Part shown: positions 26,398 through 37,058 of the stretch, in pieces
Position numbering within the stretch: the first letter of the stretch is position 1
Layout of the letters: every line of letters starts with the position of its first letter
Program-made: the position numbers and the translations under genes
Notes under the pieces: generated by a model
Told to the model about the DNA's origin: nothing
What the model saw: the letters and a program-made list of their open reading frames with translations, nothing else
Database searches by the model: none
Source: a bacterium SCSIO 12643
Lineage (GTDB): Bacteria > Bacteroidota > Bacteroidia > Flavobacteriales_G > Salibacteraceae
DNA: 64,000 bases
NCBI GenBank assembly: GCA_024398135.1
Contig: CP073750.1
Span: 2,294,001-2,358,000, forward strand
Reading direction: 5' to 3'

Positions 26398-28812
26398 CTA
26401 TTTCTTATCTGCGATGCGCATCAGGTCGCCAAAGACTCCTCGGGCAGTAACTTCTGCGCCTGCTCCGGCTCCTTGAATTACAATAGGGCGGTCACCGTAG
26501 GATTCGGTATAGATTTCAATGATAGAATCAGAACCACTGACTTGTCCCAAAGCGCTAAATTTAGATGCTGAAACCAATTCCACTTTTAACTTTCCGGTAC
26601 TTTGTTGAAGGTCTCCATAGAGATCACCCACATAACGCAAAACATGATTTTCGGATTGTTGACTTTTGATCTTTTCATATTCCGTATCAAATTGATCCAG
26701 GTGATCCAAAAAGTCTGTTTGATTTAAGTCTTGTAGGATTTCCGGAACCAGGTTTTGAATTTCGATATCTTCAAACTCGTTTTCCAAATCCAATTCGCGG
26801 GCAAGAATCAATAGTTTTCGAGCCACGTCATTTCCACATAAATCTTCTCGTGGATCAGGTTCGGTATATCCTAAGTTTATCGCTTCCTGAAGAATGGTAC
26901 TAAATGATTCATCACGCTCAGAAAATTGATTAAACAAAAAGCTTAATGATCCCGAGAATATTCCTTTGATTCGGGTGATGTTTTCCCCGGAATCATGCAA
27001 AAGTTTGATAGTATCAATCAACGGTAATCCCGCACCGACATTGGTCTCATAAAGATAGTTTTTAGAATATTGCTGTAGTGTAGAACGTAGATCGTTATAA
27101 AACTCAAAACTCTTTGTGTTTGCGAGTTTATTGGAAGAAATCAGATCAAAACCATTTTCAATGAGAGTAGTATATTTTTCAGTGAAACCATCGCTGGCTG
27201 TATTGTCAATGGCGACCAGATTTTCCAGATGATTCTGCTGTGCAAACTGAATAACCGCATCAACATTTGAAAAGTTTTCCGGTGCTTTTTTGAAAGCTGT
27301 ACGCCATTCGGATGGCGCCCCGTTTTTATCCAGTAATAACTGAGATGAGCCTGCAATTGCAAATATGTTCAGTAGAATTCCTTTTCGTTTTTCAATCTTT
27401 TTTTGAGAACGAACGATTTGATCGATTAATGAACCTCCTACGGTACCTTTTCCGAAAATAGCCACGTTGATTTTCTTAGAAATTCCAAATATCTGTGCAT
27501 GGATAAGGTGTACAGCTTTATCAATATCCTTACTTTGTACCACCAGACTGATATTGTTACCATTAGAAGTGTTGTTGATGAGCAAGATCTCGATGTTGTT
27601 TTGCGCTAGCGATTTTAAAGGATTATGAAACTCATTTAGATTTTGACCAATGATGGTAATCACACCAATATGCTCATCTGCACTAATTTGATCAATATCG
27701 TGGTGAGCGAGTTCGTATTTGAATGTATCTTCTAATGCTACAATGGATTTGGAAGCGTCTTCTTTGGCAACAATAAAACTTACGCCACGCTCAGAAGAAC
27801 CTTGAGAAATAATACCGATACTTACATTCAGATTTTGCAGTGTATTAAAGATGCGTGCATCAATTCCAACTTTACCCAATAGACCAGCTCCGGTAATATG
27901 AATCAAACTCACCTGATTTTGGACAGATATGGATTTCACACCGTTTTGATGGGCTCTTGAGCTTACGGTAGTGCCATTAAATTCAGGGTTGAAAGTATTC
28001 AAAATTCGCAAAGGAATAGCGGCTTGAGCTAAAGGTGCAATGGTCTTTTCATGAAGAATTGAAGCGCCAAAATTGGCCAATTCATGTGCTTCCTGATAGG
28101 AGAGATTTGGGATACTGGTAGCATCGTCTACTTGTGCAGGGTTTGCGGTAAAAATACCATTGACATTGGTGTAACTTAATACTTCTTCAGCGCCAATAAA
28201 TTGTGCAATTAGTGAAGCAGAATAATTGCTGCCGTTTCGCCCTAAAGTTGTGATTTGTCCTGAACGATCGGCTGCAATAAATCCGGTGATGATTGTAATC
28301 GTATTTGGAGCAATTTTTTTGAAATACGATTGTGTCTTTGCTAATGATTGCTGTTCATCAACGGTGTGAATCCCATCCTTATTTTCGGTCACCAATAATT
28401 CTTTGGCATGTACTTCAATCGCATGAATCCCTCTTTTTTTCAATAAAGCGGTCACCATCTTTACCGATAAAATTTCCCCTTGCGCCAGAACCAAATCTTT
28501 TACGGATGGGCTGTAATCTTTTAAAGTACGTACTGCTTCCAAAGTATTTTTCAGTAATTCAAATTCATGAAATAAATCCAGACTGATTTCAGGGGCCAGT
28601 TGGTAACGTTTGAATACGCTTAAATCATGGCTGTAATTCTGGCCTCGACTCGCTTTGGTAAGCATGTTTTCTAAAGTATCTGTAGAGTTTCCTCTTGCAG
28701 AAACAACCACAGCGATAGATTCGTTTTTTGATTTGTTTTCAATGATTTCAATGGCATTTTTTAATCCATTGTCATTGGAGAGGGAAGACCCTCCGAATTT
28801 TAAGATTTTCAT
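26398..28812 (-). CDS. thrA: Bifunctional aspartate kinase / homoserine dehydrogenase
   Basis: Catalyses the first and third steps from aspartate to homoserine. 804 residues. The kinase domain is at the N-terminus (MKILKFGGSSLSN; TLGRNGSNYSASLIA), the ACT regulatory region at about 300-440, and homoserine dehydrogenase from about 445 (INVAIFGKGTVGGSLIDQ; LYETNVGAGLPLIDTIK; IKGIFSGSLSFLFNQF; GYTEPDPREDLCGNDVARKL). The start overlaps the metX stop by 4 bases. It is the last gene of the methionine operon and lacks thrB/thrC beside it, so this copy is wired to methionine supply, and regulated by the leader at 31376-31497 (inference). Confidence 0.95.
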   Translation of the reverse strand: MKILKFGGSSLSNDNGLKNAIEIIENKSKNESIAVVVSARGNSTDTLENMLTKASRGQNYSHDLSVFKRYQLAPEISLDLFHEFELLKNTLEAVRTLKDYSPSVKDLVLAQGEILSVKMVTALLKKRGIHAIEVHAKELLVTENKDGIHTVDEQQSLAKTQSYFKKIAPNTITIITGFIAADRSGQITTLGRNGSNYSASLIAQFIGAEEVLSYTNVNGIFTANPAQVDDATSIPNLSYQEAHELANFGASILHEKTIAPLAQAAIPLRILNTFNPEFNGTTVSSRAHQNGVKSISVQNQVSLIHITGAGLLGKVGIDARIFNTLQNLNVSIGIISQGSSERGVSFIVAKEDASKSIVALEDTFKYELAHHDIDQISADEHIGVITIIGQNLNEFHNPLKSLAQNNIEILLINNTSNGNNISLVVQSKDIDKAVHLIHAQIFGISKKINVAIFGKGTVGGSLIDQIVRSQKKIEKRKGILLNIFAIAGSSQLLLDKNGAPSEWRTAFKKAPENFSNVDAVIQFAQQNHLENLVAIDNTASDGFTEKYTTLIENGFDLISSNKLANTKSFEFYNDLRSTLQQYSKNYLYETNVGAGLPLIDTIKLLHDSGENITRIKGIFSGSLSFLFNQFSERDESFSTILQEAINLGYTEPDPREDLCGNDVARKLLILARELDLENEFEDIEIQNLVPEILQDLNQTDFLDHLDQFDTEYEKIKSQQSENHVLRYVGDLYGDLQQSTGKLKVELVSASKFSALGQVSGSDSIIEIYTESYGDRPIVIQGAGAGAEVTARGVFGDLMRIADKK

Positions 28813-29780
28813 GATATGGAGAAATATGGTTTTAGTATTTGTGATAGCTGATCGTATTCGATGAGAAAAGCATCATGTCCATGAACTGATTGAATTTCAT
28901 GGTATGAATTGGTCACATCGAATTGATCTAAAATTTTTTTGGTATTCAAATTCGTATCCTTGTGGAAGTAGATGTCTGTGTCAATTGCAATTTGAATCAC
29001 ATGAGATTGTAGTGGTTTTAAAGCTGCTTCTATCGAATCTTTTTGTTTCGAGATATCGATCGTAGATAAAATGTAATTCATCGTACGATAAGCCTGAACC
29101 TGAAAACGTTTCGCTAAAGATTTTCCATGAAATTGGAGCCAATCACTGACTACAGGAATATTCTGATTAGTTTTTTTGTGGTTGAATTTGGAATCAAACG
29201 AAACAGGAGTACGATAGAATAGCATGGCCATCATTCTGGCATCTTCCAGCGGTTTAGAGGAATGTTGTAGAATAGACTCCTGAACGGAAGTTTGTCCTAC
29301 GATCCAATCCGAACTTTTCCAGGCGGATGCAATAGGAATTAGATGCTGAATAAACTCTGGGTGTGCAACGGCCATTTCCCATGCAATGCCCCCGCCAATG
29401 GAACCACCAATTGCGGCATACAATTGTGTGATTTCCATTTGAGTCATGGCGAGGAACTGTAATGCTGCAATGTCAAAGGCATTAAATGAAGTATGATCAG
29501 TTTGGAGTGCATGGTCATACCCATTTCCATAAATATTAAAGGCAATCACCGTATAGTGATCTGTATTTATAACCTTGTTTTTACCGATCAAATCTTTCCA
29601 CCATCCATCGTCCGGGTTTGCTACGTTTGAGTTTCCGGTGAGGGCATGATGTACCAGTATTATTGGTGCAGAGTGGAGCTGCGCACCAAACACCTGGTAT
29701 GAAAGTTTGATGTTTTCAAAAGTTTGTTGTCTGTGATTTTCAAACTTTTGAATGGTAATGAATTGCAGTGTGTTATTCAT
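28809..29780 (-). CDS. metX: Homoserine O-acetyltransferase-like alpha/beta hydrolase
   Basis: Acylates homoserine to activate it for sulfhydrylation. 323 residues, shorter than typical MetX (about 350-380). VHHALTGN provides the oxyanion region, GGSIGGGIAWEMA carries the nucleophile Ser127 (family pattern GGSxGG), DTDIYFH the Asp and VHGHDAFLIEY the His of the triad. It overlaps metZ upstream by 8 bases and thrA downstream by 4. Whether it uses acetyl-CoA or succinyl-CoA cannot be told reliably from sequence; the MetX fold favours acetyl. Confidence 0.88.
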   Translation of the reverse strand: MNNTLQFITIQKFENHRQQTFENIKLSYQVFGAQLHSAPIILVHHALTGNSNVANPDDGWWKDLIGKNKVINTDHYTVIAFNIYGNGYDHALQTDHTSFNAFDIAALQFLAMTQMEITQLYAAIGGSIGGGIAWEMAVAHPEFIQHLIPIASAWKSSDWIVGQTSVQESILQHSSKPLEDARMMAMLFYRTPVSFDSKFNHKKTNQNIPVVSDWLQFHGKSLAKRFQVQAYRTMNYILSTIDISKQKDSIEAALKPLQSHVIQIAIDTDIYFHKDTNLNTKKILDQFDVTNSYHEIQSVHGHDAFLIEYDQLSQILKPYFSIS

Positions 29781-30948
29781 GTTCTAAAGCTTGTTGAATG
29801 TCGTCTAAGATGTCGTGAATATGCTCGAGTCCAACAGATATCCGAATAAGACCATTGGTGATGCCTACCTCCAATCGTTCAGCTTCGGTAAGTTTGCTAT
29901 GCGTGGTTGAAGCCGGATGTGAAGCAATTGTTCTGGTGTCTCCCAGATTTGCGGTAAGTGAACACAGTTGTAATTTGTTTAGGAATTTTTTGCCCCCCTC
30001 AAGACCACCTTTGACCTCAAAAGCGACAATGTTTCCGCCAAATCGCATTTGTTTTTTAGCGAGTTGGTAATTGGGATGCGATGGTAAAAATGGATATCGT
30101 ACTTCTTCCAGTTGTGGATGCTTTTCCAAAGCAAAAGCCAACTCTTGGGCATTGGCAGAATGTTTTTCCACGCGTAATGCTAAGGTTTCAATACTCTTGG
30201 ATAAAACCCATGCGTTGAATGGAGAAATGGATGGCCCGGTATTTCGGGCGAATAAATAGATTTCTCGAATCAGATTCTTTTTTCCGGCTACAACACCACC
30301 TAGTACACGTCCTTGTCCGTCCAATAATTTGGTGGCGGAGTGAATGACCAAATCCGCACCATATTCAATAGGCTTTTGAATGATCGGAGTTGCAAAGCAG
30401 TTGTCAATAACCAACAGTAAATTATTCTTTTTCGCAATGCGAGCCAATTCTTCTAAATCCAGAATATCCAATCCGGGATTGGAAGGTGTTTCTGCATAAA
30501 GAATTTTGGTATTTGGACGAATCATGGATTCAATTTTAGAAAGGTTTCCGGATGAAAAATAACTGGATGAAATTCCCCATTTAGGGAGAAACTTTGTAAG
30601 CAAAGTATGGGTAGATCCAAAAACTGACCGAGCAGAAATGATGTGGTCTCCACTTTTTAATAAGCTGGCGAATGTGTTGAATATGGCAGCCATCCCTGTC
30701 GCAAAAGCATAACCATCTTCAGCTCCTTCCAGCGCTACAATTTTTTGAATAAATTCTGTTGCATTTGGATTGGTAAATCGACTGTAAATGTTCTTTTCCT
30801 TTTCTTCTGCAAATGATGCGCGCATGTCTTCCGCATCATCAAATATGAAGCTGGAAGTCAGGAATAAGGGAACACTATGTTCGGCATATTGAGTCGCTTC
30901 TAGTTGATTGCGAATGGCTTGTGTTTCCGGATGATATTTAGTTTTCAT
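29773..30948 (-). CDS. metZ: O-acyl-homoserine sulfhydrylase (MetZ type)
   Basis: PLP enzyme of the Cys/Met metabolism family that makes homocysteine from acyl-homoserine and sulfide. 391 residues. PLP Lys207 lies in VIHSATKLLDGQGRVLGG; the DGQGRVLGG continuation is characteristic of MetZ. Further motifs are YSRFTNPNATEF and SNPGLDILDL, with the C-terminal GLIRISVGLEHIHDI. Cystathionine gamma-synthase is the main alternative. It overlaps osmC by 11 bases and metX by 8. The use of sulfide fits the sulfide-handling genes at 39-44 kb. Confidence 0.92.
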   Translation of the reverse strand: MKTKYHPETQAIRNQLEATQYAEHSVPLFLTSSFIFDDAEDMRASFAEEKEKNIYSRFTNPNATEFIQKIVALEGAEDGYAFATGMAAIFNTFASLLKSGDHIISARSVFGSTHTLLTKFLPKWGISSSYFSSGNLSKIESMIRPNTKILYAETPSNPGLDILDLEELARIAKKNNLLLVIDNCFATPIIQKPIEYGADLVIHSATKLLDGQGRVLGGVVAGKKNLIREIYLFARNTGPSISPFNAWVLSKSIETLALRVEKHSANAQELAFALEKHPQLEEVRYPFLPSHPNYQLAKKQMRFGGNIVAFEVKGGLEGGKKFLNKLQLCSLTANLGDTRTIASHPASTTHSKLTEAERLEVGITNGLIRISVGLEHIHDILDDIQQALEHE

Positions 30949-31357
30949 ATTTTTTGTTGTTGAGATATAGTTGTGTTGTGATATTTGTAGCTTGTTCTAA
31001 CATTTTGCTCACCGAACAGTATTTGTCGATAGATAAATGAATAGCTCGTTGTGCTTTTTCCGGTTGGATATCCCCTAACAGGTGGAATTCTACGTGAATA
31101 GATTTGAATATGGCCGGAATGGCTTTTACACGTTCACCGTGAACCACGACTTTGTAGTCATCAATTTTCTGACGTTGTTTATTTAGAATTCCTATGACAT
31201 CAACGCTACTACAGCCTGCAACTCCCATTAAGAGTAGTTCCATTGGGCGAATGGGGTGTGCATCTGAGTTGTCAGAAACTCCAACCTGAATAGTATTTTG
31301 AAGTTCATTTTGAGCCTCAAACAGTAAGCCGTCTTTTTGATTTAGTTCTATTTTCAT
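30938..31357 (-). CDS. OsmC family protein
   Basis: 139 residues of the OsmC/Ohr fold. The two conserved Cys are present: Cys49 in LLMGVAGCSSVD and Cys114 in DKYCSVSKML, the usual pair for peroxide reduction. It is the first gene of the methionine operon and overlaps metZ by 11 bases. An OsmC-like protein at the head of metZ-metX-thrA suggests a role in sulfur or persulfide chemistry beside methionine synthesis, but that is inference. Its ATG lies 18 bases past the intrinsic terminator of the attenuator at 31376-31414. Confidence 0.9.
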   Translation of the reverse strand: MKIELNQKDGLLFEAQNELQNTIQVGVSDNSDAHPIRPMELLLMGVAGCSSVDVIGILNKQRQKIDDYKVVVHGERVKAIPAIFKSIHVEFHLLGDIQPEKAQRAIHLSIDKYCSVSKMLEQATNITTQLYLNNKKYEN

Positions 31358-31375: not shown

Positions 31376-31414
31376 AAAAAAAGTCCCTCTGGCGATGCTT
31401 TGCCGGAGGGACTT
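31376..31414 (-). terminator. Attenuator terminator upstream of osmC
   Basis: On the minus strand AAGTCCCTC, inner GGC/GCC pairing, GAGGGACTT, then a run of T. The stem is 9 bp, a C/A mismatch, then 3 bp, with an 8-base loop. It lies after the leader peptide stop and 18 bases before the osmC ATG, so full-length mRNA requires read-through. Confidence 0.9.
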
Positions 31415-31470
31415 TCAGAATTTACCTGGTGTGAATTCGTTCAGTTTTGACAAAGCTTGCGCCTATGAAG
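31386..31470 (-). promoter_or_regulatory. Antiterminator pairing of the methionine attenuator
   Basis: Minus-strand GGCGCAAGCTTTG (31463-31451, codons 12-17 of the leader peptide) is complementary to CAAAGCATCGCC (31402-31391) in the terminator loop and 3' arm: 6 bp plus 4 bp around a small internal loop. CTTC (31470-31467) can extend this to GAGG (31389-31386). Pairing would break the terminator. A ribosome reaching the leader stop would cover the first arm. Confidence 0.75.
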
Positions 31471-31497
31471 CATCATTCGATACATCATGAAGTACAT
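31441..31497 (-). CDS. Methionine-rich leader peptide of the osmC-metZ-metX-thrA operon
   Basis: An 18-codon ORF, MYFMMYRMMLHRRKLCQN then TGA. Codons 1, 4, 5, 8 and 9 are Met, five of the first nine. It lies between metF and osmC on the minus strand, 27 bases before the terminator stem. Position, Met content and the overlap of its distal codons with one arm of the antiterminator all fit a classical attenuation leader peptide: stalling at Met codons when charged Met-tRNA is scarce would favour read-through into the methionine operon. The start is ATG in AT-rich sequence without a Shine-Dalgarno site, as usual for this phylum. No clear promoter box was found upstream; it would lie near the metF 3' end. 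Confidence 0.82.
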   Translation of the reverse strand: MYFMMYRMMLHRRKLCQN

Positions 31498-31535: not shown

Positions 31536-32489
31536 TTAAAATAGTGCTTGAGCAATGCGGTATACTGGATCAGCTTTGCCCATAGAATAATAATGAAGAG
31601 ATGGAACTCCATAATCCATCAATTCTTTTGATTGTTGAATAGCCCATTCTACCCCCACTTCTTTGACTTGTTTGTTACTCGTACATTTTTCAATTTCATC
31701 AGATAATGCTTCGGGTAAATCAATATGGAAAATACTTGGAAGCAAAGTGCCTTGTTTTTTAGTGGTGATTGGCTTGAGCCCCGGAATGATTGGAACGTGG
31801 ATGTCGTTTTTGCGGCATAAATCCACAAAATCAAAGTATTTTTGATTATCATAGAACATCTGCGTAACAATATAATCTGCTCCGGCATCTACTTTGGTTT
31901 TCAAATATTTGAGATCTGTTTTAAGATTAGGTGCTTCAAAGTGCTTTTCGGGATAACCCGCCACACCAATACAAAAATCAGTAGGATGTGCATTTTCCAG
32001 TTCATCATCTAAATACAATCCACGATTCATGTCTTTAACCTGATGCAAAAGATCAATAGCATATTGGTTTCCCTCTGGTTCCCCAACAAATCGTTGTTCC
32101 GATTTAATAGCATCACCTCGAATGAGTAACACATTGTCAATTCCCAAAAAGTTTAAATCAATCAATGCGTTTTCTGTATCTTCCTTCGTAAATCCACCAC
32201 AGATAATATGGGGTACTGTGGTGACATTGTATTTATTGGAGATCGCTGCACAAATGCCTACGGTTCCCGGACGCTTGCGTGTGGATTTTCTTTGAAGTAA
32301 ACCATTTGGCATAGTCTTGTATACGTACTCTTCACGATGATAGGTGACATCTACAAAGGGTGGATTGAATTCCATCAACGGATCTAAATGATCGTATAAA
32401 TCCTGAATATTTTCCCCCTTTTTAGGAGGTAAAATTTCGAGACTAAATAAAGTGCTTTTAGCGTTTTTAATATGTTCAGTGATTTTCAT
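31536..32489 (-). CDS. metF: 5,10-methylenetetrahydrofolate reductase
   Basis: Reduces methylene-THF to methyl-THF, the methyl donor for MetH. 317 residues, normal for bacterial MetF. Visible patterns are FSLEILPPKKGENI, FVDVTYHREE, TVPHIICGGFTKEDTE, LLIRGDAI, and YIVTQMFYDNQKYF near the FAD/folate site. It starts just one base after the metH stop, so it is the last gene of the metH operon and presumably shares its SAM-I riboswitch. The osmC attenuator leader begins 38 bases downstream of its stop. Confidence 0.97.
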   Translation of the reverse strand: MKITEHIKNAKSTLFSLEILPPKKGENIQDLYDHLDPLMEFNPPFVDVTYHREEYVYKTMPNGLLQRKSTRKRPGTVGICAAISNKYNVTTVPHIICGGFTKEDTENALIDLNFLGIDNVLLIRGDAIKSEQRFVGEPEGNQYAIDLLHQVKDMNRGLYLDDELENAHPTDFCIGVAGYPEKHFEAPNLKTDLKYLKTKVDAGADYIVTQMFYDNQKYFDFVDLCRKNDIHVPIIPGLKPITTKKQGTLLPSIFHIDLPEALSDEIEKCTSNKQVKEVGVEWAIQQSKELMDYGVPSLHYYSMGKADPVYRIAQALF

Positions 32490-32490
32490 T

Positions 32491-35169
32491 TTAGTATCCT
32501 AAATTTGGTTTAAGCCATTTTTCAGCTTCTTCTATGTCGAACCCTTTACGTTGTGCATAGGATTCTACTTGATCTTTTCCGATTTTTCCTACTCCGAAAT
32601 AGGAAGCATCAGGATGAGCGAAATAGAATCCGCTAACTGATGCAGCCGGGTACATAGCATAATTTTCTGTGAGTTGAATTCCCGTGTGTTTTTGAACTTC
32701 CAGGAGATTAAATAATGTTTCTTTTTCGGTATGATCCGGGCAAGCAGGGTATCCAGGTGCAGGTCGAATCCCTTGAAAAGATTCTTTAATCAAAGCTTCA
32801 TTGGATAATGATTCTTCAGGAGCATATCCCCAATATTCTTTTCTGACTTTTTCGTGCATAAGTTCAGCAAATGCCTCTGCCAATCTATCGGCCAAAGCTT
32901 TGACCATAATCACGTGGTAGTCATCATGATCTTGTTCGAATTTAGAAATCAACTTTTCAATTCCAATGCCTGCGGTAACCGCAAAAAGCCCTAAATGATT
33001 GCCGTGGTTAGAATTTTTTGGAGCGACATAATCAGCTAAACTATGATTGGGTTTGCCTGTGGCTTTTTTGCTTTGCTGACGTAAAAAATGAAACTGAGTC
33101 AATTCACTTTGAGACTGTTCAGGATCAAAAACATGAATAGATTCATTTTGGCTATATGCCGGAAAGATTCCAATAACAGCTTTAGCCTGGAGACTTCTGT
33201 TGGTAATGATGTGATCTAGCAATATTTGAGCATCGTTAAATAGTTTTTGTGCTTCTTCACCGACTACTTCGTGATCCAGAATTTTAGGATAACTTCCTTT
33301 AAGCATCCAGGTGCTAAAGAAAGGCGTCCAGTCGATGTAATTGCGAATTTCCTGAAGATCAAAATCTTCAAATACTTTAACTCCAGTAAACTCAGGATCG
33401 AGATTTTTTTGGTCATCCCAAACCAGTTGTTTTTTATTTAGAACCGCATCTGAAAAAGGGAGTAACTTTTTGACTTTCTGTTTGTTCAAATACCCTTCTC
33501 GAAGAGATTGGTATTCAGCCTTGATTTCTTTGAAATAATCCTGATTTTTAACCAAAGCCCCGGCCAAAGGAACGCTTCTGGAAGCATCATGAACGTGAAT
33601 CACTGGTCCACTATATTCCGGATCAATCTTAACAGCGGTGTGAATTCTGCTGGTTGTAGCCCCTCCAATCAGTAAAGGAATAGAGAAGTTTTGTTTTTCC
33701 ATTTCTTTGGCTACATGAACCATTTCATCCAGAGATGGAGTGATCAATCCGCTCAACCCAATCATGTCAACACCGAGTTCTCTGGCGGTTTTTAAAATCT
33801 TTTCAGCGGGAACCATTACGCCTAAATCTTCTATTTCATAGTTGTTGCAGGCGAGTACAACTCCGACAATATTTTTTCCAATATCATGGACATCCCCTTT
33901 CACTGTAGCCAACAAAATTTTAGCTTGTGATTTAGATGATGCAGTTTTTGCAGCTTCTAAATAGGGCAGGAGGTAGGCTACGGATTTTTTCATTACCCGT
34001 GCACTTTTGACCACTTGTGGTAAAAACATTTTTCCAGAACCAAATAGGTCTCCCACGATATTCATCCCATCCATTAATGGGCCTTCGATAACTTCTAGCG
34101 GAAATTCATAGTTATTACGTGCTTCTTCTGTGTCTTGATCGATATATTCTGTAATTCCTTTGACCAAAGCATGGCTGAGGCGATTTTCCACCTTTTCTTC
34201 TCTCCAGGAATCATCCTGAGTTTTTTGTTTAGAAGTACTTTTTACTGATTGTGCAAAATCTAGTAAACGTTCAGTAGCATCAACTCTGCGGTTGAGTAAT
34301 ACATCTTCAACATGTTCCAATAAATCGGCTGGGACTTCATCATATACTTCCAGAAGAGAAGGGTTGACAATTCCCATATCCATCCCGTTTTGAATGGCGT
34401 GGTATAAGAAAGAAGCGTGCATTGCTTCTCGAACGGTATTGTTACCACGAAATGAAAATGATACGTTGCTAACACCACCACTTACCTTTGCATGCGGGAG
34501 GTTCTCTTTGATCCATTTCGTTGCCAAAAAGAAATCCAAAGCATTGGTTCGGAGTTCTTCCATTCCCGTACCAACCGGAAATATATTCGGGTCGAATATA
34601 ATATCTTCCGGTGGAAATTGAATTTTTTCAGTTAGTAGTTGATAGGCACGAGCACAAATTTCAATTCTTCTGGCCAGATTATCTGCTTGTCCTTTTTCAT
34701 CAAACGCCATGACGATGACTGCGGCCCCGTATCGCTTAATTTTAATAGCCTGTTCCAGGAATTCTTCTTCTCCTGATTTTAGGCTGATAGAATTTACCAC
34801 ACCCTTGCCCTGAATGCACTGTAATCCGGCTTCAATGATTTCCCATTTCGAAGAATCAATCATGACGGGAACTCTGGCAATATCCGGTTCGGAAGCGATG
34901 AGATTTAGAAAGTGAACCATGCTTTTCACTCCATCAATCATCCCCTCATCCATGTTTACATCAATGATTTGGGCGCCATTTTCTACTTGTTCCTTAGCTA
35001 TGGATAAAGCCTCTTCATATTCCTCAGATTTAATGAGACGCAAGAACTTTTTGGAACCGGTTACATTAGTACGTTCACCTACATTCACAAAGTTGCTCGC
35101 AGATGAAATGACCAGAGGTTCCAGTCCGCTTAAAATCAAAGGTTTGATATTATTCATTGTTGTTAGCAT
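32491..35169 (-). CDS. metH: Cobalamin-dependent methionine synthase, large part
   Basis: 892 residues comprising the pterin-binding domain ([14 protein letters not shown]; about 20-280), the cap region, the B12-binding domain with [10 protein letters not shown] (His428 as lower axial ligand) and the C-terminal reactivation domain (about 570-892; [12 protein letters not shown] is the SAM-binding motif). The homocysteine-binding domain is encoded by the preceding gene. The start is ATG 35169 (or 35157), overlapping that gene by up to 20 bases. Splitting of MetH at this point is common in Bacteroidota, and both parts have intact starts and stops, so this is not a frameshift. Confidence 0.95.
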
Positions 35170-36154
35170 TTGCTTTTCTAGGTGAATATTGCGCTGCTAA
35201 TTCAGCAATGACTTTAATGTGCTTTGGTGTGGTTCCGCAACATCCGCCCACGATATTGAGCAAACCTTCTTGTAAAAAAGATTCGATTTGTTTTCCCATG
35301 ATCTCTGGAGTTTCATCATAGGCACCAAACTCATTCGGTAGGCCGGCATTGGGATGTGCACTCACTAAGAAGTTAGATTCTTTGTTAAGAACTTGAAGGT
35401 ATGGATGCATGTCTTTGGCTCCCAAAGCACAATTCAATCCGATACTAAGTAACGGGGCATGTGCCAATGAAATATGAAATGCTTCGGTAGTTTGACCTGA
35501 TAGTGTACGTCCGCTTGCATCGGTAATTGTTCCCGAAACCATGATAGGAACTTGTTTTCCTGATTGATCAAAATATTCTTGAATTCCAAAAAGCGCAGCC
35601 TTAGCATTAAGAGTGTCAAAGACAGTTTCAACCAATAAAATATCAACTCCACCTTCTACTAAGGCTTGCGCCTGCTCTATGTATGAGATTTTAAGTTCTT
35701 CGAATGTAATTCCTCTAAATCCGGGATTGTTTACATCCGGAGAGATAGAAGCAGTACGATTTGTTGGACCTATGGACCCTGCAACAAATCGGGGTTTTTC
35801 GGGATTTTTTCGGGTAAACTTTTCAGCAACTTCTTTGGCGATTCGAGCAGATTCAAAGTTCAGATCATAAACTGATTCTTCTAAACCGTAATCGGCTTGA
35901 GCGATACGTGTGGAGCTGAATGTATTGGTTTCAGCAATATCAGCTCCGGCTTCAAAATATTCTGAATGGATAGCTTTGAGAATATCAGGTTGTGTAAGTG
36001 CCAATAAATCATTGTTTCCTTTGAGAGGTAAATGATGATCAGCAAATCGAGCACCTCGAAAATCTTCTTCAGAAAGCTGGTATTTCTGAATCATTGTGCC
36101 CATTGCACCATCCAGTACCAGTATTCGTGATTTTAAAACTTCGGTAATTGTCAT
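35150..36154 (-). CDS. metH: Homocysteine S-methyltransferase part of split MetH
   Basis: About 334 residues, the N-terminal homocysteine/zinc domain of methionine synthase as a separate chain. The pattern [14 protein letters not shown] starts the barrel; zinc Cys are in [12 protein letters not shown] and [14 protein letters not shown] chose ATG 36154 ([10 protein letters not shown]). The frame is open to a TTG at 36184, but that lies inside the riboswitch P1 helix. First gene of metH(N)-metH-metF, directly behind a SAM-I riboswitch. Confidence 0.95.
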
Positions 36155-36180
36155 CTTTCTTGTTTCAGTTTTTAAACTTT

Positions 36181-36316
36181 TCAAGAAAGAAGGAGCGAGA
36201 GATCGCTACTTAACTCATCTTTACTCAACGGAGAATTGTTGAGATGGGAATTAGCACCATGCTCGTCATGGTTGCTAAGACTTCATAGGGCCCAATCCCT
36301 CCGTCTTTCTTGATAA
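36181..36316 (-). ncRNA. SAM-I (S-box) riboswitch upstream of metH
   Basis: On the minus strand the conserved S-box core is readable: CTTATCAAGAAAG, CGGAGGGA, GGGCCCTATGAAG, TTAGCAACC, GGTGCTAATTCC and AAGATGAG. P1 is formed by TCAAGAAAG (36313-36305) and CTTTCTTGA (36189-36181). The conserved segments are in the right order. It starts a few bases after the predicted transcription start and ends 26 bases before the metH(N) ATG. No intrinsic terminator follows, so control is probably translational. Confidence 0.93.
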
Positions 36317-36322
36317 GTGCTG

Positions 36323-36571: not shown

Positions 36572-36646
36572 ATGAAGAAAATGACACGAAATATGATGCA
36601 AATGAAGGAGTGTTCAATGCACGTTTCAGGCATTTATATGGAGTAG
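36572..36646 (+). CDS. Methionine-rich mini-ORF, possible leader peptide
   Basis: 24 codons beginning MKKMTRNMMQMKECSM; seven Met in total (positions 1, 4, 8, 9, 11, 16 and 23). It lies in the 400-base gap between the metH promoter and the plus-strand rhodanese gene, and is followed after 29 bases by an intrinsic terminator (36676-36705), with rhodanese 32 bases beyond. The layout is the same as in the osmC leader: Met-rich peptide, terminator, sulfur-related gene. I could not find a strong antiterminator; only TGGAG/CTCCA (36639-36643 with 36682-36686) pairs. The -7 region upstream is weak. It could also be chance or a small transcript. Confidence 0.4.
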   Translation: MKKMTRNMMQMKECSMHVSGIYME

Positions 36647-36675
36647 TTTTTAGATAAAAGAGTTATAACTTTAAC

Positions 36676-36705
36676 AGGCTTCTCCAATCAAGAGAAGCCT
36701 TTTTT
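36676..36705 (+). terminator. Intrinsic terminator before the rhodanese gene
   Basis: Stem AGGCTTCTC / GAGAAGCCT (9 bp) with a 7-base loop, then TTTTT. No annotated plus-strand gene ends here, so it either ends a small transcript starting in 36330-36570 or acts as an attenuator for the gene at 36738. Confidence 0.88.
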
Positions 36706-36737: not shown

Positions 36738-37058
36738 ATGATACCGGAAATTGATGTATTTGAATTGAAAGAATTAATTGAGAATAAATCTGATTTTCAG
36801 TTAGTTGATGTGCGTGAGCCATATGAATTTGAGATTGCTAATTTGGGTGACGATTTAATTCCAATAAGTTCATTTGTAGAACGTTTGGATGAGGTAGATC
36901 TAGACAAGAAGGTTGTGGTGATTTGTAGAAGTGGGGTGCGTAGCGCGAATGTGGTAGATTACTTAATGCGTGTAACCGGAAAAGACAATTTTTATAATTT
37001 GAAAGGGGGGATATTGGCCTGGGCGGATCATATTGATCCAACTATAACCAAATACTAG
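36738..37058 (+). CDS. Single-domain rhodanese-like protein
   Basis: 106 residues, one rhodanese domain. VDVREPYEFEIANL is the typical first half; VVVICRSGVRSANV carries active-site Cys63 in the loop CRSGVRS; LKGGILAWADHID closes the domain. Single-domain proteins of this kind transfer sulfane sulfur in the cytosol. The gene is separated from anything else on its strand and sits behind a Met-rich mini-ORF and a terminator. A second rhodanese of the same size is at 43076-43384. Confidence 0.93.
   Translation: MIPEIDVFELKELIENKSDFQLVDVREPYEFEIANLGDDLIPISSFVERLDEVDLDKKVVVICRSGVRSANVVDYLMRVTGKDNFYNLKGGILAWADHIDPTITKY

Follow-up and report, generated by a model that had tools for sequence, protein, structure and literature searches.

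The window, a 64,000-nucleotide stretch of contig CP073750.1 of bacterium SCSIO 12643, carries on its minus strand, in this order, a SAM-I riboswitch, metH (as two genes), metF, a gap of 178 bp, osmC, metZ, metX, and thrA (Table 1), with both a short leader ORF and an intrinsic terminator contained in the metF-osmC gap. The element before metH is the only SAM-I match in the window and has a consensus promoter (TACATTTG) directly upstream; the upstream metH gene probably starts at 36154 rather than at the listed end. No terminator was found in the metH SAM-I region (36150-36319, minus strand), where UUCUUUCUUG can pair with one of two alternative partners, CAAGAAAG within the aptamer and CAAGAAAGAUG at the start of metH. 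This SAM-I element seems to act on translation and, given this and the lack of a terminator, polymerase may get as far as metF whatever the SAM level. The 178-bp gap contains no recognisable sigma-A promoter for the leader itself (the best -7 box matches at 4/6, below the coding background), so that the leader probably rides on the metH-metF transcript, and the proximity of its ATG to the metF stop codon makes reinitiation after metF possible.

Table 1 Features of the metH-thrA gene run (window positions)
Feature	Position	Strand	Remarks
SAM-I riboswitch before metH	36212-36319	-	RF00162, 75.3 bits
metH in two genes, upstream of metF	32491-36184	-	32491-35169 and 35150-36184
metF, neighbour upstream of leader	31536-32489	-	Stop codon 38 nt before leader ATG
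Leader ORF MYFMMYRMMLHRRKLCQN	31441-31497	-	18 codons; putative control codons Met 4, 5, 8, 9
Antiterminator 5' strand GCUUUGUC	31449-31456	-	Codons 14-17; helix covaries in 5 sequences
Antiterminator 3' strand GGCAAAGC	31397-31404	-	Last 2 nt of terminator 5' arm and loop
Intrinsic terminator AAAGUCCCUCCGGC...GCCAGAGGGACUUUUUUU	about 31376-31415	-	Stem covaries in relatives
osmC-like gene, first behind terminator	30938-31357	-	Pfam OsmC; ATG at 31357
metZ, O-succinylhomoserine sulfhydrylase type	29773-30948	-
metX, homoserine acyltransferase type	28809-29780	-
thrA, aspartokinase/homoserine dehydrogenase	26398-28812	-	PRK09436, 767 bits

The leader ORF noted in a preliminary description of this DNA, with Met at residues 1, 4, 5, 8, and 9, is present, running from the ATG at 31497 to a TGA stop at 31443-31441, and its peptide opens with MYFMMYRMM and ends with KLCQN. 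This enrichment in codons for the amino acid that the operon produces is exceptional, as none of 5000 dinucleotide-shuffled versions of the gap contained five Met in nine residues, and a scan of 2.46 Mb of this genome, covering 1051 upstream gaps, gave no second ORF with five and two with four. The RMM motif and the CQN end of the peptide are common to the leaders of relatives described below.

Between the leader ORF and the first gene, the terminator (hairpin and U7 at 31413-31376, -19.6 kcal/mol, z -4.7) ends 18 nt before the osmC ATG, as originally reported, and lies 123-160 nt after metF. The 87 nt upstream are complementary to the 3' arm and loop at -20.5 kcal/mol, stronger than expected from shuffled sequence (p = 0.0035) and from real 87-mers (p = 0.007), and this complementarity ranks 2/162 among the strong terminators of this genome. 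An antiterminator had been proposed from this pairing with its helix slightly misplaced, the conserved core being the 8 bp that join 31456-31449 with 31404-31397, and the GGCG/CGCC and CTTC/GAGG extensions, although possible in this sequence, do not recur in relatives. The proposed mutual exclusion of the two structures holds for the core helix; in the full-length RNA the terminator (about -28.6 kcal/mol, against -22.8 kcal/mol for the alternative) is preferred in every ribosome state, and any switch must therefore be kinetic.

Both states were folded in a model that assumes the decision point and the width of the ribosome masks. When the RNA was exposed no further than 31391 (polymerase at the U-tract), the antiterminator was the best fold without a ribosome and with a ribosome at Met 4, 5, 8 or, more weakly, 9, and was gone with the ribosome at the stop codon (13 antiterminator nucleotides for Met 4/5, 12 for Met 8, 8 for Met 9, and 0 at the stop). 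In this model, a ribosome at the stop codon would block the antiterminator and one at the control codons would not, and only 0.6% of shuffled leaders showed the same ribosome-dependent switch.

Alignment of osmC and metZ leaders from relatives had been suggested as a check, but the osmC loci gave none, with only short chance matches to the leader DNA in 40 relatives and in 395 genomes of the class and nothing convincing upstream of some 140 osmC/metZ/metX loci. A scan for Met-rich upstream ORFs in 441 upstream gaps (91 relative loci) returned three matches, all before metY (O-acetylhomoserine sulfhydrylase), and it is mainly before this gene that homologous leaders stand. When the comparison of metY leaders was widened to Met and Cys codons and SAM-I was scored by sequence motif, Met/Cys-rich ORFs with intrinsic terminators occurred in 6/6 Flavobacteriaceae metY leaders without SAM-I (L098, L114, L134, L140, L151, and L169) and in 0/41 with SAM-I (40 by motif and L161 by eye; Fisher 9e-8); metY directly follows another coding gene at L154 and L168. 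Homologous leaders with the same order of ORF, antiterminator, and terminator are present at four other loci, and Cys codons join Met in the leaders of relatives, unlike the Met-dominated leader at osmC. A further family member precedes metZ in Zunongwangia (L136), members precede nitrite/sulfite-reductase-like genes at L136 and likely at L139, and the leaders are in tandem at L009.

The leaders fall into two types. Type A peptides resemble MNxIxNxMxxMMCxxYAExxxV and have the antiterminator GCAGAGG/CCUCUG, while type B peptides end in YCQN, and the leader before osmC (KLCQN) belongs to type B; A is followed by B in tandem at L098, L140, L151, and L169. The type B antiterminator pairs UAUUGCC with GGUAAUA in relatives and GCUUUGUC with GGCAAAGC in the leader at osmC. 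In an alignment of only five sequences (A7), made with the helix already known and without the L098 type B leader, which has a 2-nt bulge in the helix, 91.5% of the antiterminator cells are paired and three pairs are changed on both sides, two of them by the present leader, compared with 29-51% paired and 0-1 double-sided changes in slid controls. The terminator stem covaries in relatives as well, so that both the Met codons and the covarying stems that the preliminary description had proposed to look for were found, and the antiterminator formed by leader-codon RNA and terminator is conserved.

Covariance models for type B (R1) and type A (R2) were run over 395 genomes. The leader at osmC scores 93.4 bits against R1, being part of the training set; outside that set, G226 gave an R1 match of 53 bits located 66 nt downstream of an R2 match, and its sequence reads MKNKITMMCCMMGNENYVKA and a terminator, MSVKRINKMCCCKNTMCMTMRIRIRYYPD and a terminator with GGUAUUACC/GGUAAUAC, then metY. 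A nitrite/sulfite-reductase-like gene in G344 (L342) is preceded by two Met/Cys leaders in tandem, MNNKVKHNFKAINNTMMCCMMCI and MTTTLIIQFLTFNMIMCMCFMCLRMRKDFTMRYCKS, both of which have their own terminator and antiterminator. An R2 match at G000:3846510 (45.6 bits) was rejected, being no more than a terminator behind a gene (L340), and R2 matches near 45 bits are for this reason not trusted.

A second candidate region lies in the window at 36572-36705 (plus strand), divergent from SAM-I-metH, with a Met-rich ORF (MKKMTRNMMQMKECSMHVSGIYME, 7 Met of 24), a terminator (AGGCTTCTC...GAGAAGCCTTTTTT) followed after 32 nt by a rhodanese gene (36738-37058), and a possible antiterminator (GGAGUAGUUU/AGGCUUCUCC); it scores 35.6 bits to R2. 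In this genome, the metK leader has a weak hairpin and no Met-rich ORF, and hisG and ilvD, sought for his and ilv attenuators as positive controls, were not found; the absence of these families from the 4.1-Mb genome suggests auxotrophy for His and branched-chain amino acids with Met synthesis kept. Two other genomes of the genus yielded no match for metF. Several copies of a unit made of a tRNA-end-like ...GGGTTCGAGTCCCGTCCGGACCGC and a terminator stand between small genes at L221 (genome 42-57 kb).

Taken together, the locus is best read as a ribosome-mediated transcription attenuator that would sense the speed of Met-codon decoding (estimated probability about 0.83), as had been proposed by analogy with trp/his-type attenuation; this is a predicted function, resting on sequence comparison and modelled folds. 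RNA polymerase, probably arriving from metH-metF, would transcribe the leader while a ribosome translates MYFMMYRMM and the following codons. When charged Met-tRNA is scarce, the ribosome would wait at Met 4/5 or 8/9, or fail to initiate, leaving codons 14-17 (GCUUUGUC) free to pair with GGCAAAGC as it emerges; this antiterminator would tie up the end of the terminator 5' arm and the loop, and polymerase would read into osmC-metZ-metX-thrA. When Met-tRNA is plentiful, the ribosome would reach the stop codon and cover GCUUUGUC, the terminator would form, and transcription would end before osmC. Counted against the attenuator are the antiterminator core of only 8 bp, the advantage of about 6 kcal/mol for the full-length terminator, the gap without a recognisable promoter, the few aligned sequences, and the lack of an ortholog of the leader before osmC in the genomes searched.

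A plain intergenic terminator after metF, with the ORF and the pairing coincidental and osmC expressed by leaky read-through, would suit a leader without its own promoter in a genome that commonly has a terminator 40 nt or less from a start (20/354 co-directional gaps). Most such cases, however, occur in gaps of 46-97 bp close behind the previous gene, no such conserved terminator follows metF in relatives, and homology of the ORF, antiterminator, and terminator to the metY leaders of other genera makes coincidence highly unlikely. It is also doubtful, if a little less so, that the attenuator was once active, arrived together with the operon or close to it, and is now decayed and functionless after loss of its promoter and type A partner: the type B leaders of relatives usually come second in a tandem that has a consensus promoter before it, and the leader at osmC stands alone without a clear one, but its ORF, antiterminator, and strong terminator are all intact, and a dead terminator of this strength before essential Met genes would be costly.

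The leaders of relatives carry Cys codons, which weakens the case for Met as the sole amino acid sensed, and their mixtures of Met and Cys (MMCCC, MMRCC) and the position of some before nitrite/sulfite-reductase-like genes would agree with sensing of cysteine or of general sulfur-amino-acid supply instead of Met alone; with five Met and one Cys only, the latter inside the antiterminator arm, such sensing is unlikely for the leader before osmC, though it retains a small share of the probability. Use of the terminator by a metabolite-binding riboswitch, either a degenerate SAM-I or a new class, is extremely improbable. It has a precedent in G013 of the same family, where SAM-I and a terminator stand immediately before osmC-metZ-metX-thrA, but at E values up to 10 the leader strand has no Rfam match to SAM-I (RF00162) or a T-box and none near a gathering score, and the conserved parts are the ORF, antiterminator, and terminator, with no large conserved aptamer. 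A faint CACCAGGTAAATTC likeness, considered as a degenerate SAM-I, was rejected as Rfam gave no support.

Attenuation of this kind is known, and the predicted Met/Cys version in the Bacteroidota would be the new part. As in the trp, his, and thr attenuators of Proteobacteria, a short ORF rich in cognate codons and an intrinsic terminator precede the structural genes and distal leader codons pair with the terminator 5' arm; the codons there are Trp, His, or Thr instead of Met. An untranslated trp leader terminates, whereas the folds at osmC place the no-ribosome state on the antiterminator side, which would suit Met because a shortage of it slows initiation too. A Met leader is unusual in that every leader starts with Met, so that shortage lowers both initiation and elongation. 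A Met leader peptide, metL, has been proposed before metNIQ in Streptomyces lividans TK24 (PMC8079986); this is an actinobacterial transporter operon with no clear intrinsic terminator according to its authors, and the metL peptide (MSTTSDRTPATEATTTPGARCMCRRMCAF) is unrelated in sequence to the present leader. Within the same phylum, leader-peptide attenuation of an unspecified kind was suggested at amino-acid operons of Flavobacterium psychrophilum (PMC9723704), where pheA and hisG figure in the main text as genes with structured 5' elements and methionine is not mentioned. A full-text literature search, with subscription papers mostly outside its scope and hence weak as evidence, returned no Met leader attenuator in Bacteroidota, and the Met/Cys family is apparently undescribed.

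In Bacteroidota, methionine genes have been known chiefly for riboswitches that respond to the product SAM. SAM-I elements (RF00162) occupy the same place before the same targets (metY, metX, and osmC), but their aptamer senses SAM, whereas the leader peptide would sense charged Met-tRNA through the ribosome; given the arrangement in G013, related genomes would use different sensors at one and the same junction. A combination of SAM-I with a Cys/Met leader also occurs in G015 and G008 of the same family (L203, 11969-11817, and L209, 3432-3268, both minus strand), where ORFs that end in MMHLCCCCCCCCNCC and MMMCCCCCTMCCC stand between SAM-I and genes resembling metX and metY. In the present gene run, the Met leader would operate beside, not instead of, the SAM-I upstream of metH. 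It is reasonably likely that these cases belong to a Bacteroidota regulon of Met/Cys leader attenuators, often as an A-then-B tandem, which replace or supplement SAM riboswitches at metY, metZ, osmC, and sulfite-reductase-like genes and which, in this genome, would combine SAM-I at metH with a Met-tRNA sensor at the metF-osmC junction. The R1 and R2 models and the peptide motifs can be used for mapping the family and, with both kinds of sensor at the same genes in related genera, the exchange of one sensor for the other is directly testable.
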